Below, piece by piece: positions 26,568 to 59,060 of a stretch of DNA of 64,000 bases. Position 1 is the stretch's first letter, and the number at the start of each line of letters is the position of its first letter. The translations under genes and the position numbers were made by a program. Source of the DNA: Gautieria morchelliformis (lineage: Eukaryota > Basidiomycota > Agaricomycetes > Gomphales > Gomphaceae); NCBI GenBank assembly GCA_015179125.1, contig WHVA01000110.1, positions 1-64,000 of the forward strand, written 5' to 3'. Below the pieces are notes generated by a model, which saw only the letters and a list, made by a program, of their open reading frames with translations, was not told where the DNA came from and searched no databases.

Positions 26568-26574
26568 CTCCCCC

Positions 26575-29500: not shown

Positions 29501-31068
29501 GGGTGTTGAACTGATGTTGCCATATATGCGAATAAATTGTTGATTTTTGTTCCTTTTGCAACAATTTCCCCATTATAGAGCAGTGAAGTGTCCCCTCGAC
29601 TGAAAACCACATCTACATTTGCTGTTGTCATCCTCCCAACAGAAAGTAGATTGGCATCGAGTTTTGGGACAAAAATGACATTTTGCAATGTCAACTCCAA
29701 GGGTGGTAGGTTCATAGACTCATCACTTTGAAGTGTGATGCGAATTGTCCCCTTTTGACTAGCCTCGAAGGCCTCACCACTTGCAGTCTCGACCAATATA
29801 GTAGGAGTCGAGTGGATTTCATCAAAGAGTTCCAATCTGCCGCATATATGACTTGATGCTGCAGAGTCCACCAACCACATATGAGATCTGTCTTGTATGG
29901 CTGATAGAGCTGATGTCTTTGTGGATAAGACAATACTTTTGGATTGGTCTTCTTCTTCAGAGATATATGCCATCATAACAATATTCTTTGTCGATGCATT
30001 GGCAAATCTTGATGATGGCACTGAAGAATTATTTGAAGAATTGTTGGCTCCTGCAGGCACAGTTTGATGCATCTGTGAGGCAGCTGTTGGAGAGTTCCAA
30101 ACAGGAGCTGATCGATTGCCACTTCCTCCCGGCCAAATACCCCCTCTTCCACCTCTTGCAACACTTGCTCCTCGACCCCTGCCTCCCCATGGGTCTTGTC
30201 CTGCCAGCCCCCCTCCTGGTGCGAAACATCTTGAAGCTGAATGACCCTCCTTTCCACAATTATTGCAGTTGTAAAATGGTCTCTGATTGTTATTTGTTGG
30301 ATAGGGGGTGTTCCATGGTTTTGTGGTGGGGTATGCAGAGTTATTAGGTCGTCCTGCACCCTTTGATTGTACCACAAAAGCCGTAGCAGCTTGATTCGAT
30401 ATTTCCACCGCACTTAAATCCGCCTCATGAGCCTCTAGCTTCTCCTCAATGACATCTATGTCCCCAGTGATCATCCTGATGGTTTGAGCGATAGGCCTCC
30501 AGGATTCAGGTACATTCCTGAGGACAGTGGCAGCATGGGTAGAATCAGCAATGATCTCACCCATTTTTGCCAATTGATTCCTGTACTCCTTCATTATAGT
30601 GAGGTAGGAGGAGACAGACTGTCCTTCGGTCATATGATAATTTTCATATCTTGTGCGAATGATGCTGATTTTGCTAGGGTCTGTAGACTCGAATTTCCTT
30701 GTCAGGATTTCCCATGCTATAGCTGAAGATTCAGTAGAGTCGATGGCTGTTTGGAGTTCAGGGGTAATACACAGGAGTATTTGGCTATAAGCCACATTGT
30801 TCCTGTCGTGCCACTCGTCCTGGAGTTGAGTTAATGGAATATTACCAACAGTCTCAACCCCATTGAGGATTACTACAGCCCTGTTGGTGACATCTGGATA
30901 GTCATCTGCTCCTGTGATCATTCTGTAAAGGCCTCTGTCTCGAGAAGTAGCCAACAACTCTCTCTTCCAAGACATCCAGTTATCCTTACTCAGCTTTGGT
31001 TTTATATCCCTAAACTTGTGGATATCATGTTTAGGATGAGGGAGGGCGGTCATGATCTGTTGGGCCAT
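26575..31068 (-). CDS. Copia-1 Gag-Pol polyprotein, 1497 aa, intact
   Basis: One open frame encodes all copia functions. Gag occupies roughly residues 1-260; zinc knuckle CNNCGKEGHSASRC about 269-283; aspartic protease WLVDSAASSHIC about 397-407; pre-integrase HHCC (LWHHRLAHAAPST, CSNCPFGKQ); integrase DDE at about D604 (SSDLCGPF), D669 (RTDNGGEY) and E705 (HNAIAERYNRT); a Glu-rich linker about 880-920; RT with VDVKGAYLNG, GIYGLKQSGR and catalytic YVDD about 1176; RNase H with FTDADFAGD about 1349 and NPADILTKPL at the end. All catalytic residues are present. The ATG lies only 25 bp after the 5' LTR. With the identical LTRs this indicates recent, possibly current, competence. Products act in cytoplasmic virus-like particles and nuclear integration (family knowledge). 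Confidence 0.97.
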   Translation of the reverse strand: MAQQIMTALPHPKHDIHKFRDIKPKLSKDNWMSWKRELLATSRDRGLYRMITGADDYPDVTNRAVVILNGVETVGNIPLTQLQDEWHDRNNVAYSQILLCITPELQTAIDSTESSAIAWEILTRKFESTDPSKISIIRTRYENYHMTEGQSVSSYLTIMKEYRNQLAKMGEIIADSTHAATVLRNVPESWRPIAQTIRMITGDIDVIEEKLEAHEADLSAVEISNQAATAFVVQSKGAGRPNNSAYPTTKPWNTPYPTNNNQRPFYNCNNCGKEGHSASRCFAPGGGLAGQDPWGGRGRGASVARGGRGGIWPGGSGNRSAPVWNSPTAASQMHQTVPAGANNSSNNSSVPSSRFANASTKNIVMMAYISEEEDQSKSIVLSTKTSALSAIQDRSHMWLVDSAASSHICGRLELFDEIHSTPTILVETASGEAFEASQKGTIRITLQSDESMNLPPLELTLQNVIFVPKLDANLLSVGRMTTANVDVVFSRGDTSLLYNGEIVAKGTKINNLFAYMATSVQHPVETVEYSGEPSELTLWHHRLAHAAPSTLETMSRLQTVDGLPDVEEDQYMSQCSNCPFGKQTRAPFKSTEELPEKIGDTISSDLCGPFDVSINGFRYFVTWIDHKTRYVSIDFLKNKECATVTNSFKGYIAWLKKQKGEDVRRVRTDNGGEYMGKEFQKLCKDLGIAHQTTSPYTPEHNAIAERYNRTLQEGALTLQHDAGLSNRFWVSGVHTVNFVKNRILHHRINKSPYEAFWLVKPKVNWLRTYGSKCWALIPKATRRKGDYKSVEGIFVGYFDNSKAYKVWVPRTHTLLKSRDVVFDELNHIERVSIHGTDADDTPMLWQRESRLPVIFQPEEPRPVQEWQYDEELPFVDRTDTTGILQQVEEEEKKIEHEEEIEGVELRTEEEDREAEEEEIEEEIAPKDFSKGPWMDPSNVEYGRGRRHAALMKEMIAMAHGRKELEEVEAAFVTLAEDEPSNYKEAMSSENASQWRKSCEVEYDTLTGYYTWTLVECPPNTNIIGCRWVFRVKRDNIGDINNFKSRLVAQGFSQVPGIDYQETFSPTIRLTSIRLILALGCKYNLELRHVDVKGAYLNGKLEDTVYMRQPEGFIKPGEEHLVCKLNKGIYGLKQSGRVWHNTLRKELEKMGFKAGEADQTMFFRFGDKGEVAVVGWYVDDGLMAANSKETMEKMIRDVRGSFDIQDLGEPSRLLGIRIIRNQELGTIHISQPSFINSISKRFDVTAGRATNSPMDPNIEFRISTNPNDIMDISYSSLIGSLNYCAVATRPDISYAVNKCAQFASKPNITHWEAAKRILRYLINTKEFGITFSSHGNGTKGYAHGLAGFTDADFAGDKDDRKSTTGWVFMFNGGPISWASKKQNLVSRSSMESELVAGSFASAEGIWLIRMGKDFQHNLAPITIFTDNQSSIAFSQDNINNSRTKHIDVHFHYTKEQITNGNIKLHYIPAMDNPADILTKPLSPRKHLHILEFLGIRRV

Positions 31069-31077
31069 GAAAAGTCG

Positions 31078-31092
31078 ATGAGACTCTTAATC
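31078..31092 (-). other. Primer-binding site, copia-1 (tRNA-Lys(CUU) half)
   Basis: Immediately inside the 5' LTR the element reads GATTAAGAGTCTCAT. Its complement ATGAGACTCTTAATC is the anticodon arm of eukaryotic tRNA-Lys(CUU), ending near position 40, so priming by a tRNA half-molecule is likely. The match is from memory of tRNA sequences, not from a search. Confidence 0.6.
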
Positions 31093-31707
31093 TAATATAA
31101 ATCAGAGTAAGGGGTTGGGGTCGAGTGAATAATGATGTGATAAAGATCTCAAGCAGTGTTCTAGTGAGAGATAAGAGCAATGTTCTAGAGTTCTAGATTT
31201 AAGCAATGTTCTTGGTGCAATAAGAGTTGAGGAGGAAACAATAATAGTCCAAAGAAGCTTATGACTCGAAGCTCTAGGGAAAAAGATTGTTAAGTCGCTT
31301 GTTTATTCGTATCTAGAGTCCAAGTATTTAAGCAGTGTAGGATAGGGGGAAATAATCATGTGTGAGTGTAATAATCATGTGAAATATGATGCTACTTAGG
31401 GGATAGGAGCATAATGATGTCAACAGTGATGCAACAGCTCCTATATGGCTAATCTCTTCATAAATGATGGAGATGATGCAATAAATGATGTCAGACCAGT
31501 GGAATGATGACTCGACTCGATAATAGGCATGAAAATGAACTCTTAACTCAATGGTACGCATGTCTGCGCCTCGACTCGATGTTTGACTCATGGTACGCAT
31601 GTATGCGCCTCGACTCGACTTGGAATGATGGGAAAATAAGGTGAGTGATAAGAGAAATGAGAAGTGAGATTGTTCTGATTGAAACTGTCCTTCCTCCTCC
31701 AATAACA
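31093..31707 (-). repeat. 5' LTR of copia-1 (615 bp)
   Basis: Identical by eye to the 3' LTR. In element sense it supplies the promoter. The right-hand TSD CCCTT follows at 31708-31712. Confidence 0.95.
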
Positions 31708-32458
31708 CCCTTGGCCCAAGGTAGGAACAGAAACGAATACTTCTGTACCCACTCACCCACCCACAAACACCGCAATTCGATGTCCTTGTTGGGGCGCCAA
31801 TCCTCGCGTAGCACTCAACGTTCAATCACCTGTCCCGTCTCAAACCGTTTTCCCTCAGATATGGAGTCGCTCTCATGTGCTGTTTCGGTGGGCGTTATAA
31901 GGTATTTGTTCCTAGACGCACAGCCAACGCGCACATGCCTACGTGGTGGCCCAGCACAATCAGCGCTAGGGTCGAATGAGACGCGGAGTCAGAGAAGGAT
32001 GGCGGGAGATCTGATCCCTGGGGTGGAGCTCCAACATTGCAGCGTTTGCGGGAGAGGTGGTGGGGAAAGGCCATGTCGCGCATTAGATATTTTCGGAGAT
32101 ATGTCACATGAGGTTGAGCAACGGCGCATGCGTTGTGATAAGCAAAGCGTGCACGTAGGGTATGTCCTCTTGAGGCGTGGCTTTTATAGTGTCTGGTGTA
32201 CGCTATGGCCCGTGACGACGGATATGTGTATTTCTGTCGATTTCCTGGAAATGTGAATGCGGACGCGTGGCCTAGAATGCTGCTGTAGCTCATAGCTATA
32301 GACGTCGGATGCGGCGGACTGGCGCATATAGTTGATTCGGTGGTGGCCTCCCCTACGCACCTGATGTTAGACGAGCATGTGGGGGACGTTAATCAATGAT
32401 CATGGAGCGCACAGAGCGTACGCGAGCACTGCCGCAGTTGCTATATTGGACTTACGAT
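31708..32458 (-). repeat. Composite repeat X: R1, minus sense (continues 25952)
   Basis: Inverted match to 6315-7050. Ends at CTTACGAT (32451-32458), the left target copy of the MITE. Confidence 0.8.
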
Positions 32459-33004: not shown

Positions 33005-33161
33005 CTTACGATGCCAGACATATCCATTTGACGCGGTCTGTCAGGGGCGGGGTATGTATGTTCGACGGACGACTGGTGCGGTGGGTACCTCCCCAATTCG
33101 ACAGGTATCCTGGCATCCTCCTCCATGCGTTCCCCGGTACTGCGACGTAGACAATGATTAT
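33005..33161. repeat. Composite repeat X between the MITE and the 16.8-kb element
   Basis: Continues R1/A (compare 57312-57470). Ends with ATGATTAT (33154-33161), the left target copy of the large element; the other copy is 49948-49955. Confidence 0.75.
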
Positions 33162-34669
33162 GGGGTAACCGCCAGACGCCCGCGGTATCAAATGTATACA
33201 GCCCGCTGTAAAATACATGTCCAGCCCGTTGTAAATATGTGTATAGCCAGGCTGTATATACAAATATATGGTTCACATGCACCGTACGCCCTCTGCACCT
33301 ACTGCACGTACAGTACACGTGCACCGTCCCCCCGTATGCAAGCACGGTGCATGCGCACCGTGCACCCTCCCGACATACGGTGCGCTCGAGCCATACGCCC
33401 TCTCCACTCTCCATGTGCGGTTCACGTCCACCGTCCTGCCGTATGCAAGTACGGTTCGCATCCACTGTCCACAGTACGCACGTATGATGCACGGGAACTG
33501 GACGCACAAACGGGGCATGGGAACCGACCGCCCCCTGTGAATGCACGTACGATTCGTGTGCACCGTCCACTGTACGCACGTATGGTGCACATGCACCGTC
33601 CCGCCGCATGCACGTACGGTTCACATCCACCATCCGCCATCTCCACGTACGGTGCACGTGCACCATCCCGGCGCATGCACGTACGGGTCACATCCACCGT
33701 CCGCCATCTCCACATACAGGTCGTGGGCACCGTCCGCTGTATGCACGTACGGTTCGCGTGCACCATCCGCTGTACGCACGTGGATGGTGAACAGGAACCG
33801 CACGCACGCACGGTGCACAGGAGCCGTACACGGTGAATGCACATACGGCTCACATGCACCGTCCGCCCTCTGCATGTCCGGTTCACGTGCACGTGCGCCA
33901 GTAGCCGTCTCTGCGCGAAATTTGGTCGTTCAGGACGAGATCAGCAAAAGATGGAGTATAGCAGGTACCATCCTCTCCATTCACGGATGGTGAAGGGTGT
34001 ACAGCAACCGTAAGCCCTCTCCCCGCACGGTTCACGTGGACGGTCCGCCCTCTGCAGGTCTGGCGCACAGGAACCGTACACCACCGTCGCCACGTATGGT
34101 TCACGCGCGCCACAAGCCGTCTCTGCGGGTAATTCAGTTAAGGTCTCCAAAAGGTGGAGTATAGCATGCACCATCCTTTCCACTCTCGAATGCTGAAGGG
34201 TGCACAACATATGGCGCTACTCCACAGCTGTCATCCATGTCTCTCAAGTGAGTTGGCCCTCACATCCAGCCGGATGGCCGTGAAAGTTGTCGTGGGAGAA
34301 GCAAGAAGCATGCAACGGCGCGTCGTGGGCACCTCATGTGACGAGTATGCAACGCGCGTCGTGGGCATGTCACGTGACACCATGGAGAACCAAGCAACAA
34401 TGCCTGCAACGGGTCGCAGGCATGTCACTTGAATACATACAGACTGATCCAACTGGTCATAAACTGCCACTCCAAATAATCTCCCTATGACTCCTGATTC
34501 ATAAGGAAAGAAAGGCCCTGGTTCAGGTTACAACATTCTGCATGCAGGCATTCAGATTGTAAGGAATGAGAGAACTGTGGCAGGTTCACATGGATGCAAT
34601 GAGGCAGTATAGGGGTACTGTTCTCCTATGGCTTGTACATAAACACTATTACATGCTAGCTGAGATGGT
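33162..34669 (+). repeat. Left long terminal inverted repeat
   Basis: Inverted copy of 48301-49947. In order: tip, AT-rich TATATACAAATATATGG (about 33257), a CGTACGG-type array, two paragraphs around GGTATAGCATGCACCATCC-like sequence, a GC-rich block with CGCGTCGTGGGCA repeats (34320-34370), and a stretch ending ATGCTAGCTGAGATGG where an LTR fragment cuts in. Apparent ORFs (e.g. 34154-34432) recur only because the DNA is duplicated. Confidence 0.8.
33270..33900 (+). repeat. 33-34-bp CGTACGG-type minisatellite, left arm
   Basis: Degenerate tandem units of the type TGCACGTACGGTTCACGTG followed by CACCGTCCGCC(A/G)T(A/C)T. Each unit holds short dyads (CGTACG, GTGCAC). Several frames lack stops over hundreds of bases, giving spurious ORFs of 150-330 codons on both strands. 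A small patch of the same unit lies at 37730-37870. Confidence 0.8.
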
Positions 34670-35977
34670 CATAGGTGCTCCTTCAGAGCCCTTCACCAAT
34701 AGCGCAGATAATAGTTCGAAGGCTAAGGTAATGAAGGTGTAGTATCAAAACTCACCAGTGGTGCTTAAGTCTTCCCCTGGTCGAAGATAGAAATCTACAG
34801 GAGAGGGCTCAAGACGATAGTCACAGCGAGGTCACGTTATGCACAAGATAGACGTATGATAATTGAACTGGGGAATGTACATGTGAATGTTAACTACTTA
34901 TATCTAATGCTCGTATGATACCAGTGAATAGCAAAGAGGCCATCTGGAGTCAGGGTTGGATAGGGGTGCGCAGTCATGATACAGAATAGATGGAACACAG
35001 ACACAATATAATGAAAGAGGAGTGTGAATATGAAACGACAGGAAGGAAAGGGGACAAAGGTACTTATGTATGAAAACACACCTTGGGACCCACATATACA
35101 CCGGCCTGCATGGATACTTTGTCTGCTGGGTTGATCCCACACGATCTACGGACAGGACGTCCCACGAATGCATTCTGGCCATATGAACACCTAAAGGGGT
35201 TGGATTGGGAAGGTGATGGGACCAGTGATGAACCATCAAGCTAGGTAAGGGATGTCAATCGTGTTTGATGGCGTGCCTGCTGGTGAATGATGCGAGCAGA
35301 GAATGGCTTTTCGGCGACTGCGACAAAGGGCTAATGGAATGATCATAGAAGAAGCATGGCCTGAGGGGAGGGTGAACCCGCGCGACCATAGAGGAGGACT
35401 GGGGGAAGGGACAATAGGGGTAGCTGGGTACAGGAAATAAACGAGTCACATCATCTGATTATAGGAACACCAGACGGGGTTTAAGCCGGGCAGGTGATAG
35501 GACCCATGATGAACCATCGAGCCGGGGGAGGGCGAGGATCATGCTTTTGATGGCGTGGCTATGTATGAATGACGTGGGAAGCGAATAAACATTCAGCGAA
35601 TTCAGCGAGGAGCGAACAGGGAGAATATAAAAGTGGAGTGACGAGGTTACTGGGCATAAGAAACAGACGGGTCATGACACTTGTCTACTAGTAGGTTGAA
35701 TGGTAGCAAGTTCATGTGAGCATCTGATATATCACGCGCCATAGTCCTCATTGCCCCCACCACGCCGGGTAGAGGATGTTGATCGTGTTTGATGGTATTC
35801 CTGCTGGCGAATGATGCGAGCAGCGAATGGTCATTCAGCAAATGGGGTGAAGAGCGAATGGAGTGAACATATGGGAGGAGTGGTGGAAGGGTAGGGCGAA
35901 CTCAGGTGAAGCTGCAGGAGGAGCGAGGAGGGGGATCGTAGAGACAGCGAGGTAAGGGAAATAGACGGGTCATGACA
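34670..35977 (+). repeat. Three tandem 3'-end fragments of the TGTCA...TGACA LTR family
   Basis: 34670-35455 starts inside the LTR (aligns with about 60425 onward). 35456-35679 and 35680-35977 each repeat only the last part of the LTR, the latter two ending GGGTCATGACA. No TSDs are seen, so these are rearranged remnants rather than separate insertions. Confidence 0.7.
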
Positions 35978-36062
35978 TCCCGCTCACAGTGGAACAGGCT
36001 TTTGTAGAGCATCTTCCGTTCATTGGGCTGGCCAGGTGAGCCAGTGCGAGGCAGTGTGCATG

Positions 36063-36986
36063 TGTCATGACCGGTTTATTTCTCCTACCGCACTACCTCT
36101 ATGTTCCCCCTCGTCACTCCCTAGCATCTTCGCCAGAGTTCGCTGCACCTACCGACCGCTTCCCCTCTACGTCCACTCCACCCGCTGTTCACCCCATTCT
36201 CCGAACCGCTATTCACTGCTCGCGCATTTCGTCAGCAGGCACACCATTGAATATGATTGATACCATTCACCCGGCATGATGGCTCATCATTAACCCCATC
36301 ATCTTCTTATTCCAACCCCATTGGGTGTTCGTATGGCCAAGGTGTGATCGCAGGACGTCTCTTCCATAGGTCGTGTGGGATCAACCCAGTAAATGAAGAG
36401 TCCGTGCAGGGTAGCATGTATGCGGGTCCCAAGACATGGTTTTGTCCATAAATGCCTTTGCTCCCTTTATTCTCCGTCGTTTCATATTCTCATTCTCCCC
36501 TCACTCTATTGTATGTTTATTCCATCTACCTAGTATCATGACCGCGCACCCCTATCCAACCCTGACTTGTGACGGCCTCTTTCCTTGGTCATCATCTTAA
36601 GCCTTCTCTTGGAGATTCCCATCTTCGACTAGCAAAGGACTTAGGCATCACTGGTGAGTTCTCATACGTCATCTTCGTTACCCTAGCCTTCGAACCATTT
36701 TCTGTGCTGTTGGTGAAGGGCTCTGAAGGAGCACCTTCGCCAGCGAAGGGACCGTCGAAACTTAGACAGCCCTTCCGCGATATCTTGCACGTTACATCGT
36801 CAAGAGCCATGGGCCATTTCGCTACAACTGTAGATAGGGTGAGCCCCAGTTAGGCAAACCCTCTTACCTTGTGAACATTCATTGGTTCACCTATTCGCCG
36901 AACGGCATACTTATTCGCACAAGTTATTCGGGCATTCGCTGTGTTCACTAATACACGATATTAACGCCTGAAAACCAATCTTGACA
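36063..36986 (-). mobile_element. Solo LTR, TGTCA...TGACA family, 924 bp
   Basis: Reads TGTCATGACC at the left and CTTGACA at the right, with TSD GCATG at 36058-36062 and 36987-36991. Shorter than its relatives (1248 and 1272 bp), so it has an internal deletion or is a subfamily. A solo LTR results from recombination between the two LTRs of a full element. Confidence 0.9.
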
Positions 36987-38379
36987 GCATGCCAGCATGT
37001 GGGGGCATGCACCAGCTTCTGCCACTTGTGCGAGACGATCTCGGCAGGAGCAGGTCATGCATGGCAGGTGCTGGAGATAGCGGATGCTCACCTCCGACGG
37101 GAACATGCTGACACTCTTTGTGTATCTTTCAAGCTGAAGGATCTGCCAAGATATGTAGCCAGGAAGACGCTGGGAGTGTAATTAAGAAGTATAATTAAGT
37201 TTTGACTATTCCCAGGTGAAGGAATGAAAGAACCTAGTTCTGGTTGTGACACATGTCTCAAAGTGTGTAATCAGTTTGTAAGGAATCAAAGAACCTGGTT
37301 TGGGTTCTGACCAGTGTCTGCATGTGTGTTTTCATTTTGGTATGGAATGAAAGAACCTGGTTCTGGTTCCGACACATGTCTGCATGCATGTAGTCATCTG
37401 ACCAGTGTCTGAATGTGTGTATTTATTTTGGTAAGGAATGAAAGAACCTGGTTTGGGTTGCAACATGTGTCTGTAAAGTGTATATTCATTTTTGTAAGGA
37501 ATGAAAGTGTCATGAGGACAGGTTTAACAGCCATGGATGTAATTTTCACTTCACCTATTTCACGACTTCAGGCATGTGCCTAATGACTCATAACACCCTC
37601 TATAACTATTTCACAACTATTTCAATATCTCTCCACTCACTTTCTATATCCGAGTCCAATCCAAGCTGAGGGACATGCACACCTATCCAAGTTCATCCCG
37701 AGCACCCCAGGACACACATACACACCCATAAACGTACGGTGCACAGGGACCGTCCAACCTCTGCACGTACGGCACAGGCGCACTGTCCACCATATGTGGT
37801 ACTTACGGTTCCTGCGCACTGTCCCGCACATCCGCAAACCATAGCTCTCCACCTATGGTGCACTTGGACCGAACACATGCAAGCTTCCCCGCCTATGTTC
37901 ATGTTGTCGCAGAGCAAATGGGTCCTTTTCAGCAGCACCTGATCTCATGAACCTTGAGAAAGCCGTACACTCACCCGCTGACATTCCATGTTTCAGCATA
38001 CATGGGTCAAATAATAGGACACGCAGTCCATTCCACCCACGAGTGAAATGCTAGTGTGTCAATGACATTATGTGGAGGATGCTTTGTATTTCCCATGCTT
38101 GACAGGTGGTCCGGCTCCTTTCTCTCTAGTTGCCCCTGTGCTTCCTGGGCAATAAGGTGATACTGTAGATCAATGTGGTGCGTGAGTATGATGTCTGCTA
38201 TGCCAATCAATACCATAGGTAGGCATGTGAGGAATAACCTGACAGGCAGGTATCCACAGTCACTGAAGGTCCCGCTGATTATGCACTTGTCACGTGATCC
38301 ACCAGGTGTCTGTGGTATCCACATCACTCTTATTCCAGCGGGGCTTTTCTAGTACTGCTCAAACCTGAATTTTTTGCAG
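36987..38379. other. Interior of the 16.8-kb element, no intact gene
   Basis: 36987-37180 has a short open frame (HLCETISAGAGHAWQVLEIA) that I do not recognise. Then a minisatellite (37217-37508), a patch of CGTACGG units (37730-37870) and unassigned sequence. A splice-acceptor-like TTTTTTGCAG at 38370-38379 precedes the next coding remnant. Confidence 0.4.
37217..37508 (+). repeat. Minisatellite, unit about 62-66 bp, about four copies
   Basis: Units begin AAGGAATGAAAGAACCTGGT and contain ACA.GTGTCTG and CATTTTGGTA. The third copy has an extra about 28-bp internal duplication. A diverged unit occurs in both terminal repeats (34500-34575 and 48390-48450), so the array belongs to the large element. 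Confidence 0.7.
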
Positions 38380-38641
38380 ACACATTGTTTGCTGTTGATG
38401 ACTTTCATGCCCGGGGGCACACCAAATGGTCACCCGCATCCTTTTTTTCAACTTATGCCACCCTGGATCCATGGCTTGCCCAGATCAACACAAGTGCTGT
38501 AGAGTGTGGCAATAGTGGATTGCACTGCATCCATAAGTTCATCACTACATGTCCCAATCACATGCTATTGTTACGTCATATACACCCATGTCTTCATTTC
38601 TGTATGGAACTGCCTGAAAAGACAAAGAATAGCCATCTCAG
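38380..38641 (+). pseudogene. C-terminal remnant resembling KDZ-transposase-associated fungal proteins
   Basis: After an acceptor-like site the frame reads TLFAVDDFHARGHTKWSPAS, then NTSAVECGNSGLHCI. Two small frameshifts later come YMSQSHAIV and YTHVFISVWNCLKRQRIAIS. The arrangement DxFHxxxHxxxSPA ... INxSAxExxNSxLxxI ... YMSQ resembles the end of cysteine-cluster (CxC) proteins associated with KDZ transposases in mushrooms. This is recalled pattern similarity, not a database match. The last codons (AS, ATG, stop) lie beyond copia-2 at 43798-43808, so the retrotransposon cut the gene three codons before its end. Confidence 0.4.
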
Positions 38642-38987
38642 TGTAATAATAACTATACGATAGAAATCTCAGTGTTTGCTCGGTTTGCAAACAGCTAGAT
38701 AATATTACCTATACGATAGAAATCTACAAGCGTATAAGTAATGGACACAGGACTCGTAATAAATGTCTTACCTCAGTGTTTGCTCGGTTTGCAAACAGCT
38801 GAGGGATAGGACTCGCTAGCTAACTACTTTATAGGCTAGCGAACAAAGGAAAATTATAACAATGAGACTGCGGAACGATCTATATATGTACTGTGGACAA
38901 TGGCATTCTATGAGACAATGGTTCCTGGATCATTAGTCACATGCTGTGACTCGGGTGACACGGTTTGCTTGCGTCACCCCTCCAACA
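38642..38987 (-). repeat. 3' LTR of copia-2
   Basis: Differs from the 5' LTR by one base that I can see (AACTATACG here, AACCATACG at 43455-43463). Contains two internal direct repeats, CTATACGATAGAAATCT and GTGTTTGCTCGGTTTGCAAA. Confidence 0.93.
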
Positions 38988-38994
38988 CTCCCCC

Positions 38995-41900
38995 TCAAAC
39001 CGCTGTCAACCCGAGTTCGATGGCGAAGTGCTTTACTTTCGCGGATGGTAAGGCCTTAGTCAGCGTGTCGGCGACCATATCGTCTGTGGGGCAGTATACA
39101 AGGCGAATGGCGCCTTGATCGATGATCCCCGTATGAAATGAAAACGTACGTCGATGTGTTTCGTACGCGCGTGATACTGATGGTCCTTTGCTAGTGCGAT
39201 TGCTGATTGATTGTCGGAAAACAGGGTTGTGGGAGCAAGCTGGATATCGAAGACCTGCTTTATGAGAGAACGAAGCCAGAGAGCTTCCTTCGCAGCGTGA
39301 GTCGCCGCAACATATTCACTTTCTGTTGTTGACAAGGATATGATATTTTGTCTTTTTGCACTCCAGGATACGGCGCCGCCATGGATTATGAATGCATAGC
39401 CGGAAATCGCGTGTCTGTCATAGGCCATACTGCCGTCAGTGTCGGCGTATCCAGTCAGTCCTCCGTCTCCATGCCCGAATGATAACCAGAGGTACGTAGT
39501 CCCTTTCAAGTATTGAAAGATTCTCTTGACAGCATTCCAATGCGTAGGGCCATACTTTGTCGAAAAACGCGACATGGATTGAACAGCGAACGCGATGTCG
39601 GGTCGAGTACCCAATGCTGCATACATCAGTGAGCCCACGGCTTCTTTATACGGCGTGTCACGCATAGCGGCCCATTCGGCTGTCGTTTTCGGAGTCGAGG
39701 ACATGTCCAGGAGCAGTCCATGCTGCATAGGAGTCGACGCGGGTTTTAGCTCATCGAAATTGAACCGTCGAAGGATGGAGGTAATGTAGGATTGTTGGGA
39801 AAGGTGTATGGTGCGACGAGTTCTGTTGCGTCTGACTTCGATCGCCAACAACCAGTGCAATTCGCCCAGGTTCGTTATTTCAACGTGTTCAGATATAGCT
39901 TTCTTGAAGTTGCTGATCAACTTTTCTGAGGATGCGGAAATGGTACAGTCGTCGACGTGAACTAGTACAACGGCAAAATCTTGGCCGTTTCGGCGAAAGA
40001 ATACCGCTTGGTCGACATCGCATCTGGTGAACTTAAGATGGTGAGTCATGATGTTGACGAGCTTCTGATACCACCTTCTTCCTGACTGTTTAAGCCCATA
40101 CAGTGTCTTTTTTAGACGGCACACCTTTCCTGAGGAGTTTGGCATGTGATAGCCAGGGGGTTGCGCCATATAGACGGTCTCATTTTCAGTGAGTTCACCG
40201 TTTAAATACGCGCCCTTGATATCAATTTGATGAAGCTCCATGTCATCTGCGGCAGCCAAAGCAAGCACGGTTCGAATGGAGGCTAGCTTGGCAACAGGGG
40301 CAAGCGTGTCGAAGTAGTCAACACCAGGCACCTGGGAGAAACCTTGCGCAACGAGGCGAGCCTTGTAGCGAACCACATTGCCCGCTGCGTCCTTTTTTGC
40401 ACGGAAAACCCATTTTGAGCCGACAATATTGGCATTTTCCGGTGGTGTGGTGAGTTCCCAAGTCCCAGCTTCTTTGAGAAGTGCTAACTCCTCAATTATC
40501 CCCTTTTCCCAGAGTTCCCAGTCGGGGCGGCGTCTTGCCTCGGCCAGAGATCGAGGCTCAATGGCTTCGACTTCGCTGGTTTCAGCTACTAGTGCGTACT
40601 CATCCAATTCTTCGCTATCATCATCCATTCAGCTGATCCCTCCCCCTCAAGAACTACATCTTGATTTTTAGCTGCAGGGAGCTGAATTCCAGGGGTGATG
40701 ATAGGGTCAGATTTACGGTGAGAAGATGTTCCATGTCCGTCTAGGATATCGCGGATGCGCTGACTAGGTTTACGCATCCGTTTGGCAGGTGCTTCAGCTT
40801 CAGATTCGGGTTCGGAGACTTCGATATTGGGCACATCTTGAGGTGGAGCGGGGGCGTTGGCAGCGGGGGCAGTGGTGGCGTTCAAAGCATTTGTTGGTAT
40901 GTCAGTTTTCGTTTCGATGAGTTGCCATTCCTCCCCCTCGAGACGAGAAACTGACGAGTTCCTGCTGTCAAAATGGACATTGCGCTCAACGCTGACTGTT
41001 TGTTTCTCAGGCCAGTAGATGCGGAATCCCCTGCTTCTTTCATCGATGCCCAACCAACGGCCCTCTGTAACACGTCCACCTAATTTGTCACCAGTCTCAG
41101 TGCGCACCCAAACCTTTTCACCCCATTCGCGAACGTTCCGTAAGTCCGGCTTCTTTCCAAATGCTGCCTCGTAAGGAGTCTTACCATCTACAGCTCTTGT
41201 TAGGGTGCGGTTCATGAGCCAGACTACATGGCGTGCCGCTTCGCCCCATAAAAACTTTGGGAGTCCGCTTGCATGCAAGAGGGCGCGGACACGCTCTACA
41301 ATCGTCCGGTTTCGACGCTCAGCAACTCCATTGTGCTGAGGAGTGTCGTGTACGGTGAGTTTTTGCATTGTACCTTTTGACTTCAGGTGTGATATGAAGT
41401 CCTTTCCTAGGTATTCACCGCCACGGTCCGAATGTAAGGTTTTTATGGTTGCGCCGAGCTGCGTGTTGCACCATGTCTCATACTCTTTGTATGAGCGAAG
41501 GCTTCATTTTTCGTGCGTAGGAGGTACAGGTGAGTTAGCCTAGACATGTCATCGGTGAAGGTGATATAATACCGCTTTCCACTTTTAGTAGCGACTGGCG
41601 CAGGTCCCCAAAGATCGCTATGGATTTCTTCGCCGAAATTTGATGCACGGCTGCCTTCTCTTGTCTTGGGGACAGGTTTGCGTGTCGCCTTGGTGTACAC
41701 GCAGGATTCGCAAAAGAAGTGATCTCCTGAAGGTGAATGTTCAAGCTTCACTCCTGTTACAAAACCCTTGGCCACTAGTTTTTTAGCCGTGTCAGCTGAG
41801 ATATGACCCATTCGGCGGTGAAACTGGTCCAAGGTCAGTACTTCTGCAGCCAAACTTGCTGCATCGGACTCATGCGAGACACGATAGAGACCTCGCCCTG

Positions 41901-43305
41901 ATTTCGGGACTGTGCCGATCAGCTCGCCGTTCCGCTCACGTATAGTACATTTGCCGTCTGCAAATGTGACATCAAGACCCGCATCATCCAGTTTTCCGAC
42001 GGATACAAGCGTGTAGCCGACTTCTGGGGAGTACAGGACTTCTGTGAGCCTTAGCTTCGAGATATCGACGTTGTTTGGTATGTCGATTGTCATCTCGCCC
42101 TTTCCAAATGCTTTAAAGCTTTGCTTGTTTGCAGCTTGGAAAGATCTTGGAGATATTTTGACGAAGTTTTCAACTGCGTCACGGTAAGGAGTTATGTGGG
42201 TGGTACATCCTGAGTCATAGACTTCGATGCAAGGTGAGGTTTTTGCAATGTCTTCGACTTCGACGCAGACTGCGTGTGCATGCTCCAGATCGGTGCCGTT
42301 GCGATTCATGTCACCACCAACAAGTGATAAACCCTCACTTTCGTTAGTGTCAGGTGACAGCTCCATTTCGCATTCATCGTCTGAATTGTCGCTAACCTCA
42401 GAGAACCAGTCTCCTGTGTCATCTCCAGTGATTTCACCATCTGAGTCCGAGTCGATGTTCGACAAAAGTGGTGGGAGCTCGCTGTCTGACTCATAGAGCT
42501 CATCTGCCATGAAGGCATACTCTGTTTCAGAACCGGATTCCACAGCAGCGTTAGCTGTGCCGCTGCTGCCCTGAGCCGCACTCTTGTTCATCGTTTTCGC
42601 AGGTTTGGGGCATTTGTCTTTGAAATGTCCCTTATCGCCACAATTCCAGCAGACACCGCGTGGCTTGCGTTCGGTGCGTTTCCCTTTTCCGCTTTGTGTG
42701 ACAGACATAGCCTCATCCTTATCATTCCCCTTGTTGCCACCACTTCGGCGCAATCTCTGTGCCACCTGTCGTTCGTACTCTTTGGAAACCAAGGAGATAA
42801 GTTCATCCGGATCTATGGTTTTCGAGGTGCTGTATAGTCTTGCCCCAGCAAGTAGATTTGAAGCGAAGGCAGAGAGATGAGGCGAAAGGGATTTTATTAT
42901 GGTGGAGCGATAGTCCTTCTCCTCGATGATGACGCCGTAGGTGGCCAGCTCCTCCTTTTTTACTCGCAGGTTGTCCAGGAACTCACGTACATTTCCTTTT
43001 TCAGGACACTTGGACTCCATGAACTGAGTGCGCAGGTCAGCCTGTGCAAAGGCACCTTTCGAAGAAAATTCCTTCGAAATAAGGTCCCACCGTTCCTTCA
43101 GGGATGACTTTCCATGGATACGGATTAGGGTCGAGTCGGGGATACGATGGGTGAGGAGGGCTTTGGCAGAGCGGTCTTCCTTGATCCACAGGGTAAGTGA
43201 AGCTTCCTCTTCGGCAGTGGGAGTGGCACTGAGGGTGGGGCGAACAGAAGTACCGTCGAAGTATCCCCACAATCCTTTTGCCTCGATCGCATCCTGGAAG
43301 CGCAT
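38995..43305 (-). pseudogene. Copia-2 gag-pol with three frameshifts
   Basis: Gag to first part of integrase (43305 to about 41492): zinc knuckle CWNCGDKGHFKDKC, protease YDSGCTTHI, HHCC (HRRMGHIS, CESCVYTKA), first Asp HSDLWGP. An extra base near 41492 shifts to the frame with SDRGGEYLG and HNGVAERRNRT (second Asp and Glu). A second shift near 40625 leads to RT (IDIKGAYLNG, TLYGLKQSGR, VHVDDCTI) and RNase H (STTESEYVAA). A third near 39108 separates the final TLTKALPS segment, ending TGA at 38995. All domains are present with catalytic residues. With LTRs one base apart the copy is young yet not translatable; single-base indels could also be sequencing errors. Confidence 0.92.
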
Positions 43306-43446
43306 GGCGAACGCTGTCCAGTTTAGGCCAGTCTACATGAGCTTGGGCACGGAGGACGGGAGGAGCTCTGTGGTAGTGAGCGCTGTGGTGGACATCGGAG
43401 TAAGGAGTGCTTATTTGAGGGTAGGGAGCGGGGGGGCCCAATAACC

Positions 43447-43792
43447 TGTAATAATAACCATACGATAGAAATCTCAGTGTTTGCTCGGTTTGCAAACAGC
43501 TAGATAATATTACCTATACGATAGAAATCTACAAGCGTATAAGTAATGGACACAGGACTCGTAATAAATGTCTTACCTCAGTGTTTGCTCGGTTTGCAAA
43601 CAGCTGAGGGATAGGACTCGCTAGCTAACTACTTTATAGGCTAGCGAACAAAGGAAAATTATAACAATGAGACTGCGGAACGATCTATATATGTACTGTG
43701 GACAATGGCATTCTATGAGACAATGGTTCCTGGATCATTAGTCACATGCTGTGACTCGGGTGACACGGTTTGCTTGCGTCACCCCTCCAACA
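43447..43792 (-). repeat. 5' LTR of copia-2
   Basis: 346 bp. Just inside it (43446 leftward, minus sense) the element reads GGTTATTGGGCCCC, like the other initiator-Met primer sites but with one extra T. Confidence 0.93.
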
Positions 43793-43811
43793 CTCAGCTA
43801 GCATGTAATAG

Positions 43812-44032
43812 TGTTAGTAATCGGGACGATGACACCGCCGAGGCAGAGCCGGCACGCATTTAGCCGGAGGTTCGAGATCGCTCTCGACCCCGGGTTACTG
43901 GTGCACCGGCATCGCATCGGCACAGCAGCTCGAAGAGATTGGTAATACAATGGACATCATATTTTGTATATAAGGCAGATGATCTTGTACAGATCGTAGA
44001 ATAACAAATTATTATATCTCCTTCGTTCCACA
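43812..44032 (+). repeat. 5' LTR of copia-3 (221 bp)
   Basis: Identical by eye to 48080-48300. TATATAAGG (about 43974) is a likely TATA box with the transcription start downstream. Confidence 0.95.
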
Positions 44033-44047
44033 GGTTATGGGCCCCGC
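44033..44047 (+). other. Primer-binding site, copia-3 (initiator tRNA-Met half)
   Basis: GGTTATGGGCCCCGC, the same 14-base core as in copia-A although the LTRs and proteins of the two elements are unrelated in detail. Confidence 0.7.
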
Positions 44048-44111
44048 GCATAACTAAACTACTACAAATCTAACTACGCTCTATACTCCAATAACTCAAT
44101 ACCGATCGACG

Positions 44112-47100
44112 ATGTCGAGTAGCAATAACACGTACAAGATCGATCCCTTGAACGGGGATAATTACGCGGCGTGGCGCCGGCGGCTCGAGTGGATACTCGA
44201 TGACTTAGATCTGTGGGACGTGGCTATCGGCAGGGAGACGGAACTGAGACCGGCAGATGCCGACAACGTCACTGCGACCGAGCAGCAGGAGATCGACGAT
44301 TGGAGAAGGAAGGACAAGAAAGCTAGAAAAGAGATTTGCCTCAGAGTTGCCGATGAACAACTAGTTTACATCAATCAGACGATGTCTGCATTTGCTGTAT
44401 GGACTAGTCTACAAGCTATATTCGAATCTAAGGGAGCAGTGGGGATTGTAAATCTCCGAAGAGACTTCTTCCGGACGCTTGCCGAGGACGGCGCGAACAT
44501 GGAGGAGCACGTACGCAAGCTCCGCGGCATTCAACAGGAATTGAATGCGCGGGGGCATTACATCAGTGACACCGAGTTCTCGAACACGTTGCTGACGTCA
44601 TTACCAGATTCTTGGTCGGCGTTTATTACGGCAGTAAACGCCAGTGGAGCCGGGACAACAGCTGATATATTAATAGCTCGGGTCCTCGATGAGGATCGAG
44701 CACGGAAAGCTGGATCGGCACGGCAGACGGCGCTTAAGGCGCAACAACGTCACAGGACCAGGAAAGATGACTCAGGAGCAACAAAGGGAAAGTGCCGAAA
44801 TTGCGGCAAGAAGGGTCATTACGTGAAGGACTGTTGGGCGAAAGGTGGCGGCAAGGAGGGCCAAGCACCGAAATGGTTCAAATCAGGGAACAAAGAAACA
44901 GTCAAACAAGCAGAAGAAAAGGACTTCGCATTTGTATCTAAGGAGGTAGCATACAGTGCTATATCCGCATCCGACTGGTTAGCCGATTCAGCGGCAACAA
45001 CACACATAGCTAGAAGCCGAAACGATTTCGCTAGCTATGCCGAGGAACCATCAGAAATCGAAGGAATTTCACCCGGTGCGGTACTACATACACAAGGCCG
45101 AGGCACTATATACATGGAATTCAAGATCGGCGCCAAGACGAACACGATCGAGCTACGTGACGTCAAACACGCACCAGATGCGCCGAACAACCTTATCAGC
45201 GTAGGGTGTTTAACTGATAAGGGCAACACGGCCACATTTTCAGGCACCGGCGTCGAATTCAAATCACGCGCCGGAGTTACCTTCGCACAGGGACAGAAGC
45301 GTGGGCGGCTATTCTGTATGAAGGCACGAGTCACTCGATCAGTCGAGGCACGGGACTTTGCCGCAGCGGCAAAAGGACGGTCATGGGACAAATGGCACAG
45401 GATACTAGGGCACGTCAATATAAACTCCATAAAATTGTTGAAGTCTAACGATTTAGTCACCGGACTTGAGATCGACGAGTCAAACGAGCCGAGCCAGTGC
45501 AAGGCATGCATACAAGGCAAGCGGCATGTGGAGCCATTCCCCAAAAGAGCCGAGGACACTGTAGAACAGGTCGGTGACCTGACAGTATCCGATGTATGGG
45601 GACCTGCCCAGACCGAGGGACCATCGCGTGAGAAATACTTTTATTCTTTCACGGACATCAAATCGAGGTACACCGTAATCTATTTTGGGAGCACCAAAGA
45701 TGAAGCGCTCAAACACTTCGAGACGTACAAGGCATTCCTCGAGACCCAAACAGGTCAGAAACTGAACAGGTTTCGCTCGGATAATGGAGGGGAATATGTC
45801 AATAAAAATTTCAAGGAATTTTGTGCAAAATATGGCATTATCATGGAGACCACAGCTCCATACTCCCCAGCCCAGAATGGAATTGCCGAACGACTCAACC
45901 GGACCTTACTCGAGCACGCACGGGCAATGATATTTGCCAAGAACCTGCCAAAAATACTCTGGCCCGAGGCCGTGGCTTACGCGTGTTATATCAAAAATCG
46001 ATCACCCACGCGAGCGCTTGGAGATGACGCAACGCCGTTCCAAGCACTATTCGGCAAGAAGCCGAACTAGCACGTCTAGAGGAATTCGGGACAAATTGTT
46101 GGGTTATGGTGCCGGATCAACGTCGAGCCAAACTTGATCCAAAGGCAGAAGAACATATATTCGTCGGAGTAGCTGAACATGCAAAGGCCTGGAGGTACTA
46201 CAATAAAGCCTCAAAGCACGTTCAAGTATCTAGGAACATTACATTTGACGAAAATGACAACCGACTCTACCCCATCCCAGATAACGACGATGACGACACG
46301 GCACCGCTCGAGGGGGAGCACTCACCGCGCGAGCATGTGCCGGACCCGATCACATCTACCCCACAGACGTCATCACCCCAGACAACACCCGTTCCTGATC
46401 CACCTGAACAAGCGCCAGCTCCACAGATTCGACGGAGCGCGCGTATCACTCAAAGACCGGATTACCGGAAGCTGAATAATTCAGGACGCACCGAGCAGGT
46501 TTACATAACGAGAGAAATCGTCACTGAACCTGAGAATTACAGAGCGGCGGTATCACGTGATGATGCGCCGATCTGGGAGAAAGCGATGGAAATTGAGATG
46601 GACCAACACAAGACGTTAGGAACATGGGAGCTAACAGAACTACCACCCGGACGAGTAGCTATCGGTTGCCGATGGGTATACGCTGTCAAAACACAACCGG
46701 ACGGACAATTCGATAAGGCTAAAGCAAGGGTTGTGGCTCAAGGATTCACACAGAGGCCAGGGATGGATTACTACGAGATAACCTCACCCGTGGTCAAATT
46801 CGATTCACTACGTGTTCTATTAGCGATCGCAAACACACTCGATTGGGAAATCGAAATGATGGATGTCAAAGGCGCCTACCTCAATTCAACCATAGATGAG
46901 GAGATCTACATGCGCCAGCCTGACGGATTTGATGATGGATCTGGACGCGTTCTAAGAATATACAGAGCGCTCTACGGACTCAAGCAATCGGGGCGAGCTT
47001 GGCATCAGCGCTTACGCAAATTACTACTCGATCTCGGCTTCCACCAAAGTACAGCCGATGAATGCGTCTACATCAGACAAGATAAGGACTCAATCGAAGT

Positions 47101-48085
47101 CATATCAGTATATGTGGACGACTTTGGACTATTTGCTGACTCCAAAGGAGGGATGATTAAGCTCAAGGGGGAGCTTCATGGAAAATTCCCCTTAACGGAT
47201 TTAGGAGAAATGAAGAAAATCTTGGGAATTAGAGTTGAGAGGAATAGGGATGAGGGAACACTGATCATGTCACAAGGACATTACATCGACATCATACTCG
47301 ATCGATTCAACATGACAACGGCACATTCCGTATCTACACCTCTGCATAAAATGATCAAACTCACGACACCCATGGACTCAACAGGTCCAACTGCCGAAGT
47401 ACCCTATGCTAAGGCGATCGGATCACTCATGTATGCAGCACTCAGCACGCGACCTGATTTGGCTTTTACCGTACAACATCTGAGCCAATTCACTACTACT
47501 TACGGAACCGAGCACTGGACGGCGATCAAGCACGCGCTCAGGTACCTCAAGGGGTCACGTGACGACGGCATAATCTTCCGACGAGACGCTGGTCTCGACC
47601 TCGAAATATTTGTCGACTCGGATTATGCTAATAGAAACGACGCACTATCTATTAGTGGCTATATAGCTATACTAGGAGGGGGAGCTATCGCATGGAGCTC
47701 GAAGAAGCAGCGAACGATCGCGCTATCTACCACGGAAGCCGAATACATGGCACTTACCGAGGGCGCCAAGCAATTAATCTGGCTGAGGCGTTTTATCGAG
47801 GAACTTGGAATCGATCAAACCCAGCCCACGTCACTTCGATCAGACAATCTAGGCGCCATTACACTATCGCATGACGCAACGAATCATGCGCGTACCAAAC
47901 ACATCAATGTCGCATATCATTTCATCCGTGAGAAAGTGGCCTCTCACGAGGCATCACTTACATACGTACCGACGAAGGAGAACGTAGCGGACATATTTAC
48001 AAAGGGACTAGACATGCATCAACATAGGTATCTATTAGGGAAATTAGGATTTTACCGAAGGGACTTCTCGCTGGGGGAGTGTTAG
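44112..48085 (+). pseudogene. Copia-3 gag-pol, single frameshift
   Basis: 44112-46070 encodes gag (YKIDPLNGDNYAAWRRRLEW), zinc knuckle CRNCGKKGHYVKDC, protease WLADSAATTHIA, HHCC (KWHRILGHVN, CKACIQGKR) and integrase DDE (VSDVWGP, RSDNGGEY, NGIAERLNRT). One base is missing near 46069 (GCCGAACTAGCACG, where an extra G would restore the frame). 46106-48085 continues the integrase C-terminus, RT (MDVKGAYLN, ALYGLKQSGR, YVDDFGL) and RNase H (VDSDYANR, STTEAEYMAL, ADIFTKGLD). The stop codon (48083-48085) is formed inside the 3' LTR. LTR identity and the single lesion imply recent insertion. Confidence 0.94.
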
Positions 48086-48300
48086 TAATCGGGACGATGA
48101 CACCGCCGAGGCAGAGCCGGCACGCATTTAGCCGGAGGTTCGAGATCGCTCTCGACCCCGGGTTACTGGTGCACCGGCATCGCATCGGCACAGCAGCTCG
48201 AAGAGATTGGTAATACAATGGACATCATATTTTGTATATAAGGCAGATGATCTTGTACAGATCGTAGAATAACAAATTATTATATCTCCTTCGTTCCACA
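48080..48300 (+). repeat. 3' LTR of copia-3 (221 bp)
   Basis: Identical by eye to the 5' LTR; followed by TSD AATAG and then the right arm of the 16.8-kb element. Confidence 0.95.
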
Positions 48301-49947
48301 AATAGTGTTTATGTACAAGCCATAGGAGAACAGTACCCCTATACTGCCTCATTGCATCCATGTGAACCTGCCACAGTTCTCTCATTCCTTACAATCTGAA
48401 TGCCTGCATGCAGAATGTTGTAACCTGAACCAGGGCCTTTCTTTCCTTATGAATCAGGAGTCATAGGGAGATTATTTGGAGTGGCAGTTTATGACCAGTT
48501 GGATCAGTCTGTATGTATTCAAGTGACATGCCCGCGACCCGTTGCAGGCATTGTTGCTTGGTTCTCCATGGTGTCACGTGACATGCCCACGACGCGCGTT
48601 GCATACTCGTCACATGAGGTGCCCACGACGCGCCGTTGCATGCTTCTTGCTTCTCCCACGACAACTTTCACGGCCATCCGGCTGGATGTGAGGGCCAACT
48701 CACTTGAGAGACATGGATGACAGCTGTGGAGTAGCGCCATATGTTGTGCACCCTTCAGCATTCGAGAGTGGAAAGGATGGTGCGTGCTATACTCCACCTT
48801 TTGGAGACCTTAACTGAATTACCCGCAGAGACGGCTTGTGGCGCACATGAACCGTACGTGGCGACGACGGTGTATGGTTCCTGTGCGCCAGACGTGCAGA
48901 GGGCGGACCGTCCACGTGAACCGTGCGGGGAGAGGGCTTACGGTTGCTGTACACCCTTCACCATCCGTGAATGGAGAGGATGGTGCATGCTATACTCCAG
49001 CTTTTGGTGACCTCGTCCTGAACGACCAATTTTCCCGCAGAGACGGCTGGTGGCGCACATGCACGTGAACTGGACATGCAGAGGGCGGACGGTGCATGTG
49101 AGCCGTACGTGCATTCACCGTGTACGGCTCCTGTGCACCGTGCGTGCGTGCGGTTCCTGTTCACCGTTCGTGCGTACGGTTCCCGTGCACCGTACGTGCG
49201 TACAGCGGACGGTGCACTCGAACCGTACGTACATGCGGCGGGATGGTGGACGTGCACCGTACGTGGAGATGGTGGACGGTGGACGTGAACCGTTCGTGCA
49301 TGCGGCAGGACGGTGCACGTGCACCGTACGTGCGTACAGCGGACGGTGCACGCGAACCGTACGTGCATGCGGCGGGATGGTGGACGTGCACCGTCCGCTG
49401 TATGCACGTACGGTGGACGTGAACCGTACGTGCATGCGGCAGGACGGACGGTGCATGCGGCTGGATGGTGTACGGTTCGAGTGCACAGTACGTCGGGAGG
49501 GCGCACAGTGCCTGCGCACCGTCCGTGCATACGGCGGACGGTGCACGTGAACGGTACGTGCAGGGGGCGATCGGTTCCCGTGCATCGTACGTGCGTACTG
49601 CGCACGGTGCACGCGAACCGTACATGCATACGGCAGGACGGTGCGCGGGCACCGTACGTGCATACGGCGGCGAGGGGGCGTACGGTTCAAGTGCGCCGTA
49701 CGTCGGCAGGGTGTACGGTGCCTGTCCACCGTACGTGCATACGGCGGGACGGTGGACGTGAACCGCACGTGGGGAGGGCGTATGGTTTGAGTGCACCGTA
49801 CGTGCAGTAGGTGCAGAGGGCGTACGGTGCACGTGAACCATATATTTGTATATACAGCCTGGCTACATACGTATTTACAATGGGCTGGACATGTATTTTA
49901 CAGTGGGTTGTACACATTTGATACCGCGGGCGTCTGGCGGCTATCCG
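48301..49947 (-). repeat. Right long terminal inverted repeat
   Basis: Inverted copy of 33162-34669, with a longer satellite section. Its inner end is interrupted by copia-3 and copia-2: the sequence CTAGCATGTAATAG between them (43798-43811) completes it. Ends GGCTATCCG before the target copy ATGATTAT. Confidence 0.8.
49060..49850 (-). repeat. 33-34-bp CGTACGG-type minisatellite, right arm
   Basis: About 22 degenerate units of the type GGACGGTGCACGTGAACC followed by GTACGTGCATGCGGC. Read on the minus strand it matches 33270-33900 but is about 160 bp longer, so the arms have changed repeat number independently. Confidence 0.8.
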
Positions 49948-49996
49948 ATGATTATATGGCTGGAAGTGGAAACACCTTCGATGGGGTGGGCGGGCT

Positions 49997-58741: not shown

Positions 58742-59060
58742 GCACTTCATTGTTATGGTGACGTGTTCTGCTGGGGTATCGTGTCGTATCTGGCGTCGCG
58801 TCCTATGCTGACATGCTGGTTGGCTGTCGTGTTCTATCGTCCATCTGGGTCTGTCTTGTCATATATCGCCTACAATATCGTAACCCAGTAAGAATGATGT
58901 CCGTACGTGCCTGCGCGTCGTGTGTGAGGCATGTATCATGAGGTGCGGTGCACTCGTGGGGTCCAACAGTGAGCCTCCCAAGAAAAACCGGGCGCCGTTC
59001 CTAGTTTACTCAAACCAAAAAAAAGAAAAAAAAAAAAAAAAAAAAAAAACAAGAAACAGC
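58742..59060 (+). repeat. Composite repeat X tail with A-rich end
   Basis: Tail block (matches 7210-7420 and inverted 18480-18720) followed by CCCAAGAAAAACCGGGCGCC and an A-rich run (8 A, G, then 24 A at 59026-59049). The same A-rich end, inverted, closes the copy at 18420. Confidence 0.7.

Follow-up and report, generated by a model that had tools for sequence, protein, structure and literature searches.

A probable non-autonomous copy of a CxC4-carrying, KDZ-like DNA transposon with palindrome-array arms in Gautieria morchelliformis

Introduction

A stretch of 64,000 nucleotides from Gautieria morchelliformis (contig WHVA01000110.1, positions 1 to 64,000; hereafter the window) contains two long arms in inverted orientation between positions 33162 and 49947. 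Is this region a single mobile element and, if so, to which group of transposons does it belong? The original prediction, made from the letters alone, was of a giant, non-autonomous or gutted transposon of the Kyakuja-Dileera-Zisupton (KDZ) type. We searched the 122-Mb assembly of 1113 contigs, in which the window lies on contig C114; other C-numbers are the contig labels of the copies. The region is one mobile element that was inserted as a unit. As a whole, it is best explained as a decayed cut-and-paste DNA transposon copy that is non-autonomous and comes from a CxC4-carrying KDZ-like lineage, an explanation that we consider likely.

Element boundaries and the empty site

The span between the two tips, 33162-49947, is 16,786 bp long. 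The tip string CCGCCAGACGCCCGCGGTAT has a single occurrence in the window, at 33169 on the plus strand, as has its complement, at 49921. Directly outside the tips, ATGATTAT is present at 33154-33161 and 49948-49955 and nowhere else on this strand of the window, forming a perfect 8-bp target-site duplication (TSD), as had been predicted. The arms (33274-34650 and 49693-48301) form an inverted match of 87.2% over 1407 columns in self-BLAST. The predicted inverted arms were thus recovered, but the tips do not match in their outermost bases, which are GGGGTAACC on the left (A) and CGGATAGCC on the right (B). The terminal inverted repeat (TIR) is imperfect, with GGGGTAACCGCC at one end and CGGATAGCCGCC at the other, followed by the common AGACGCCCGCGGTATC. 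The features of the two ends are as follows.

33154-33161, no strand: left copy of the TSD, ATGATTAT, the same as 49948-49955
33162-33188, plus strand: A tip, GGGGTAACCGCCAGACGCCCGCGGTAT (tip-pattern match)
33178-33256, no strand: tip-proximal 22-23-bp repeat containing TACAGCCCGCTGTA (Tandem Repeats Finder, TRF; the C220 and C806 ends are similar)
33257-34672, plus strand: A arm, a subterminal array of 18-bp palindromes at 33/34-bp spacing (inverted match to 48301-49693; sibling matches reach 34672)
48306-49947, minus strand: B arm, a subterminal array of palindromes in the opposite orientation to the A arm (17 palindrome matches)
49921-49947, minus strand: B tip, CGGATAGCCGCCAGACGCCCGCGGTAT read inward (tip-pattern match)
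49948-49955, no strand: right copy of the TSD, ATGATTAT, the same as the left copy

The two flanks were joined by script and aligned to the remaining window. An element-free alignment of 194 columns and 77% identity was found with about 57318-57508; it has a gap of 5 bp where the flanks join. The alignment with 1443-1221 is less close (69% over 230 columns), and about 6085-6309 aligned as two separate pieces. The flank match continues across the junction, and the unit was therefore inserted into a pre-existing repeat. This agrees with the earlier claim that the rejoined flanks recreate an uninterrupted repeat.

Paired tips elsewhere in the genome

The first 200 bp of the element, used as a DNA query, had at least 54 matches in the genome (40 of 60 candidates scored). 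A tip pattern covering both tip classes with up to three mismatches was found at 29 places, while the reversed control gave none. The two classes are A (GGGGTAACC, GGGGCAACC and similar) and B (CGGATAGCC). The resulting list holds 56 tips or near-tips; a partial match at C419:28145-28192 was left out, and some entries miss the outermost bases. We defined a pair as two listed tips facing each other within 20 kb, which gave nine places. Beside the window, the pairs measure 6,201 bp (C171), 6,379 bp (C806), 8,690 bp (C263), 13,139 bp (C446) and 4,269 bp (C167) and, by coordinates, about 16.5 kb (C892), 9.8 kb (C220) and 11.6 kb (C419).

Six of the nine pairs, the window included, are bordered by a perfect 8-bp TSD (ATGATTAT, ATACTGCT, CAGCAGCT, CTTTACGG, GGTCTTGT and GTACAGCC), compared with 0 of 72 in a control of mismatched pairings. 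The tips and 8-bp TSDs thus recur at other loci, as the original prediction required of a transposon. Every pair in which both tips could be read (8/8) had one A and one B tip. Some copies carry further sequences: C171 has a piece of about 223 bp that resembles the long terminal repeat (LTR) of the second copia element described below, and C263 has an extra insert. The C892 copy (loci L082 and L083, about 2082-10166) contains a gypsy-like retroelement, with frames judged by eye.

A CxC4 and KDZ-like gene linked to the tips

Between both tips of the C446 copy lies an open reading frame (ORF) with a CxC4 domain (PF18717, E = 9.6e-43), followed by a KDZ-like exon; CxC4 lies upstream on the same strand. 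The exon contains the motifs TGGIMCCWCTH, VVYDFACAL, DDFHxxGHTKCS and NTSAAECGNS, in this order. It is open in C549, where an A tip is present, and also in C344, close to a B-type tip. The CxC4 profile had 31 matches in the genome. In the fetched loci, 12 distinct exons exceeded 90 aa, of which 11 were aligned (set A1) and the L047 exon was left out. The Pfam KDZ profile (PF18758) matched 10 of the 11 exons at E ≤ 1, the best at E = 1.3e-5. We compared A1 with A2, a set of 14 of the 30 fetched canonical KDZ loci of this genome; their single alignment is collinear over TGG/CxxxH, YDxAC and FH.

We determined how closely this gene and the tips are associated. The genome contains 33 CxC4-KDZ 3'-exon loci (35 rows merged) and 46 canonical KDZ loci (91 rows merged), the latter without the C167 row, which belongs to the present lineage. 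Ten of the 33 have a listed tip no more than 3 kb away, where uniform chance would give 0.09, and 12 have one within 7 kb. None of the 46 canonical loci lies within 7 kb of any of the 56 tips. The ten tip-linked loci include four with the longer exon (C446, C549, C344 and C167) and four rearranged small copies (C806, C263, C171 and C680); C337 and C507 look, by tip and orientation, like further small copies. The 3' end of the gene faces the A tip in C446 and C549 but the B-type tip in C344. The gene thus has no constant orientation between the tips, which recombination between the inverted arms could account for.

Four canonical KDZ loci (C251, C419, C626 and C992; L019-L022) have identical match scores over two exons, which suggests that a separate KDZ family has recently been active here.

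The gene is broken alike in the small copies C806, C171 and C263. Their CxC4 part runs in the direction of the A arm. Compared with C446, the KDZ-like region lacks about 235 bp, and the final 280 bp or so of the exon are inverted beside the B arm. By coordinates, C680 has the same rearranged layout. These small copies with a common rearranged gene sit at different sites with intact TSDs, and we therefore infer that protein from other copies mobilised them in trans.

Palindrome arrays in the element arms

Inward of the tip, the 22-23-bp repeat with TACAGCCCGCTGTA is followed by 33/34-bp units for up to about 1 kb or more. TRF reported minisatellites of 33/67 bp in both window arms, in line with the CGTACGG-type, 33-34-bp minisatellite that had been noticed in each arm. 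The unit core, CGTACGGTKCACnTGCACCGTCC, reads as the 18-bp palindrome ACGGTGCACGTGCACCGT. With up to three mismatches, this palindrome has 27 matches in the window (0.03 expected), of which 26 are in the arms, 9 in A and 17 in B (shuffle mean 0.02 each), and one in the element core described below. The remaining 47 kb of the window contain none.

The same 18-bp core is shared by two diverged subfamilies with unlike spacers, and C220, C446, C892 and the window copy each have it in mirrored form in their two arms. At up to three mismatches, the two end pieces of the subfamily 2 copies contain 20 and 32 palindromes (C220), 10 and 8 (C446) and 17 and 14 (C892), while their interiors contain two, none and none. 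We counted GTACGG in about 24.8 kb of arm sequence, made up of 17 pieces of nine copies. Read from the tip inward, it appears 245 times and its complement 133 times, compared with a background of 25 on both strands of 47 kb. Neighbouring occurrences most often lie 34 (65 times) or 33 (48 times) bp apart. Near the gene of C185, a 33-bp repeat was found and rejected as an array member, being a two-copy array of unrelated sequence.

The palindrome arrays are putative docking sites for a transposase dimer. The protein, probably via its CxC4 cluster and as a dimer, would bind the 18-bp palindrome arrays in both arms, and this binding would pair the two element ends. The KDZ-like domain would then cut at the tips, and joining at 8-bp staggered target sites would leave the 8-bp TSD, making this a cut-and-paste mechanism. 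More tentatively, CxC4-KDZ-like elements may form a distinct lineage whose ends are long, mirrored, palindromic transposase-binding arrays that co-evolve with CxC4, a possibility that we would not yet favour. Many short subterminal repeats in mirrored arms are also a feature of elements of the EnSpm/CACTA type, where such repeats bind the transposase. The gene content of the present elements differs from that of the EnSpm/CACTA clade, in which TSDs are 2-5 bp and ends mostly CA..TG (available text of PMC12730594).

Interior of the window copy and nested insertions

Between its arms, the window copy is a composite of element sequence and later insertions.

34673-36990, no strand: mostly nested repeat(s) of another family, in inverted arrangement (self-BLAST; copies at 54915-56185 and 60197-61443)
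36991-37144, no strand: internal segment common to subfamily 2 (C220, C892; 88% DNA match of 36991-37221)
37145-38641, plus strand: element core common to siblings (95% to C806 and C263)
38343-38614, plus strand: transposase remnant, the C-terminal part of the KDZ-like exon, with the frame broken near the end (89% protein identity, two pieces)
38642-43792, minus strand: Ty1/copia LTR retrotransposon 1, LTRs of about 346 bp, 5-bp duplication CTCAG (gag and RVT_2 domains)
43812-48300, plus strand: Ty1/copia LTR retrotransposon 2, LTRs of about 221 bp, 5-bp duplication AATAG (domains, LTRs)

Ty1/copia domains (gag, Pol_BBD and RVT_2) were found in open frames within 39063-43332 on the minus strand and 44058-48082 on the plus strand; the scan of the first retrotransposon took in all but its middle frame. 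The LTRs differ at one of 349 aligned positions in the first and at none of 223 in the second. The sibling C806 has the same sequence without either insert. Together, the two retrotransposons make up about 9.65 kb of the 16.8 kb, and by coordinate arithmetic the net element measures about 7,136 bp. The predicted giant size is therefore mainly due to nested copia; the siblings C171 and C806 measure 6.2 kb and 6.4 kb. The window copy has since taken in both copia elements and one or more further repeats. The segment 34673-36990 is partly common to the sibling C263, and 35980-36059 also to C220 and C892.

Of the rearranged core, the window copy keeps the second half only (37145-38641). At the DNA level, 38362-38641 is 89.7% identical to the C549 exon. 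The remnant had been likened to proteins that accompany KDZ transposases; its link to KDZ held, but it is a piece of the transposase itself and not solely of an accompanying protein. It matches the KDZ-like exon of the C446 gene, an exon whose own Pfam KDZ match is weak. The CxC4 profile, searched genome-wide, had no match in the window copy, and Rfam gave no window match at gathering scores. The core also holds an internal 61/91-bp minisatellite at 37219-37507 (TRF). A minisatellite of about 61/62 bp is common to both subfamilies (L081 2539-6566, L067 2589-3781 and window 37219-37507).

Compared with C806 (L041 3244-4759), the core differs by 54 substitutions, of which 45 are transitions, 37 of these 45 in CpG-type context; the comparison had no random control. 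This bias suggests cytosine methylation of these copies, of which the substitution pattern is a possible footprint. Observed/expected CpG reaches 0.99 and 1.17 in the two arms; the core has 0.39 and the remaining window 0.8. We do not claim from these ratios that the arms are protected from CpG decay, since ATGG stands in place of ACGG, and CCAT in place of CCGT, in several arm units, and the motif alone may raise CpG.

Weighing the alternatives

Several observations weigh against a KDZ-like cut-and-paste transposon. Three of the nine pairs lack a perfect TSD, with 4/8 matching bases in C446, 1/8 in C167 and 2/8 in C419; by eye, C446 reaches 7/8 if one end is shifted by one base, and the A tip of C419 is lost. 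The KDZ-like exon of C446 has one in-frame stop, and C549, of which one end was examined, has no CxC4 match. For these reasons no copy in this genome was found with an uninterrupted gene between two tips; in C446 the gene is present between both tips but interrupted. About 1.9 kb past the 3' end of the C344 gene, the tip is of type B and not of type A. The KDZ bit scores seen lie below the Pfam cut-off of 26.6 (19.3 for the C549 exon and 25.1 for C167), the profile-profile comparison (hhalign) of A1 with the canonical KDZ set A2 had a probability of 0.2% (E = 0.36), and no residue of the exon could be assigned as the first catalytic Asp of KDZ. None of the solved structures matched A1 at E ≤ 1. 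Considering the weak Pfam match and the low probability of the comparison with canonical KDZ, membership of the lineage in the KDZ group is probable but not proven.

Could the region be an inverted segmental duplication with an accidental 8-bp border repeat? Two long inverted arms are what such an event would leave, and satellites recombine readily. The original prediction had held that arms occurring singly without paired TSDs would point this way, and single tips do occur: most listed tips are unpaired at the sensitivity of the search, yet 18 of the 56 form the nine pairs, six of them with TSDs. The same tip pairs stand at five other loci with different perfect 8-bp TSDs, on which ground we reject a duplication. 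The empty-site paralogues and the constant A/B polarity of the readable pairs also contradict it, and we regard it as extremely unlikely. It is also improbable, though less so, that the element belongs to another superfamily with 8-bp TSDs, such as hAT, and carries the CxC4-KDZ gene as a passenger. Such TSDs are not unique to KDZ, as P and Merlin elements make them too, and the KDZ scores discussed above fit a passenger gene. Usually, hAT elements also make 8-bp TSDs (available text of PMC12730594). Against this, no hAT or other DNA-transposase domain was found in the scanned ORFs of C446, C549, C220, C263 and the window, a subset of ORFs with introns unmodelled, and of the two gene sets tested for tip linkage only CxC4-KDZ was linked.

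A further explanation keeps the transposon and denies its arms a role in transposition, the satellites having arisen by neutral array expansion. Tandem arrays do expand neutrally, and unit number varies among copies. No palindrome was found at 14 of 24 CxC4 or 3'-exon loci with flanks of about 1.5 kb, C409 and C436 included, a further point against functional arms; one was found in the flanks of C344 and three in those of C549, and these flanks may stop short of the element ends. Given those 14 loci, the absence of the palindrome from 30 canonical KDZ loci (103,899 bp) is a weak control. Conversely, the 18-bp core is kept in subfamilies with unlike spacers and mirrored in both arms of four copies, with the exception of a 719-bp B piece of C167 that has one GTACGG. 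On balance, we consider neutral arms rather unlikely. The tip pairs, the C446 gene and the match of the remnant support what was originally proposed, a KDZ-type element with 8-bp TSDs that is non-autonomous or gutted.

Other repeats in the window

The window contains further repeats outside the element. A young-looking Ty1/copia element at 25953-31708 has one open frame of 1503 codons, flanked by direct repeats of 616 bp with 100% identity. Another copia element, at 8364-13276, has 143-bp terminal repeats that are 98.6% identical and a stop between two long frames. A GC-rich repeat family of 1.1-1.6 kb is present in both orientations at 4743-5931, 18375-19974 and 57548-59100, its members being 70-83% alike. 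One long frame of this family (57685-58758) had no Pfam match at E ≤ 0.01.

Comparison with known KDZ elements and significance

The comparisons below refer to the available parts of the cited papers. The fungal elements KDZ1-KDZ3 of Cryptococcus neoformans are about 9-11 kb long, with TIRs of 139-241 bp, CxC1 and 8-bp TSDs (4-8 bp for KDZ2/3; PMC12810828). Like them, the present elements combine 8-bp TSDs with a KDZ or KDZ-like domain and a zinc-chelating CxC domain; unlike them, they carry CxC4 and not CxC1, have a KDZ match under the cut-off and possess palindrome-array arms of about 1.4 kb (PMC12810828). The word "subterminal" is absent from the text consulted on the Cryptococcus elements (PMC12810828). 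Zisupton and Dileera make 8-bp TSDs and Kyakuja 7-bp TSDs (PMC12730594). The present elements share with Zisupton and Dileera the 8-bp TSDs, the TIRs (stated for Zisupton) and their occurrence in fungi, whereas the families described there carry a TET/JBP gene (PMC12730594). The TET/JBP profile PF12851 had no match in our genome, and the control genomes were silent too. Kyakuja belongs to the KDZ group and is found in Agaricomycotina, but has 7-bp TSDs, CA..TG ends and no TIRs (PMC12730594). None of these three features is seen in the element, which has 8-bp TSDs, GG../CG.. tips and a TIR. In the main text of PMC12730594, "subterminal", "minisatellite" and "CxC" are absent.

Among other relatives, Marasmius oreades has mushroom KDZ elements with characterised TIR motifs (PMC8290104), and the Zisupton relatives of nematodes have TIRs with no detected TSD (PMC9297572). 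The giant KDZ elements of Ectocarpus and Chlamydomonas are also large and contain nested transposon insertions, but these are generally fixed among copies, while both copia inserts of the window copy are absent from C806 (PMC12477816). No description of palindrome-array arms was found in the portions covered of the KDZ, Zisupton, Kyakuja, CxC4 and subterminal-repeat literature, a coverage that excludes the founding papers. Within this coverage, the combination of 8-bp TSDs with a length of 9-11 kb is already known from KDZ elements, and the palindrome-array arms are the new detail.

KDZ elements are large, widespread in mushrooms and have been termed understudied (PMC8290104, in part). Here, element ends, TSD, empty site, gene-bearing relatives and derivatives apparently mobilised in trans are linked in one case. 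The tips and sites provide a biological context for the CxC4 cluster, which Pfam describes as merely associated with KDZ transposases, and the palindrome is a concrete candidate binding site that is testable in vitro. If the arms do serve transposase binding, a many-site subterminal platform for end recognition would be new for the KDZ superfamily. The element interior could also be turned around by recombination between the two inverted arms.

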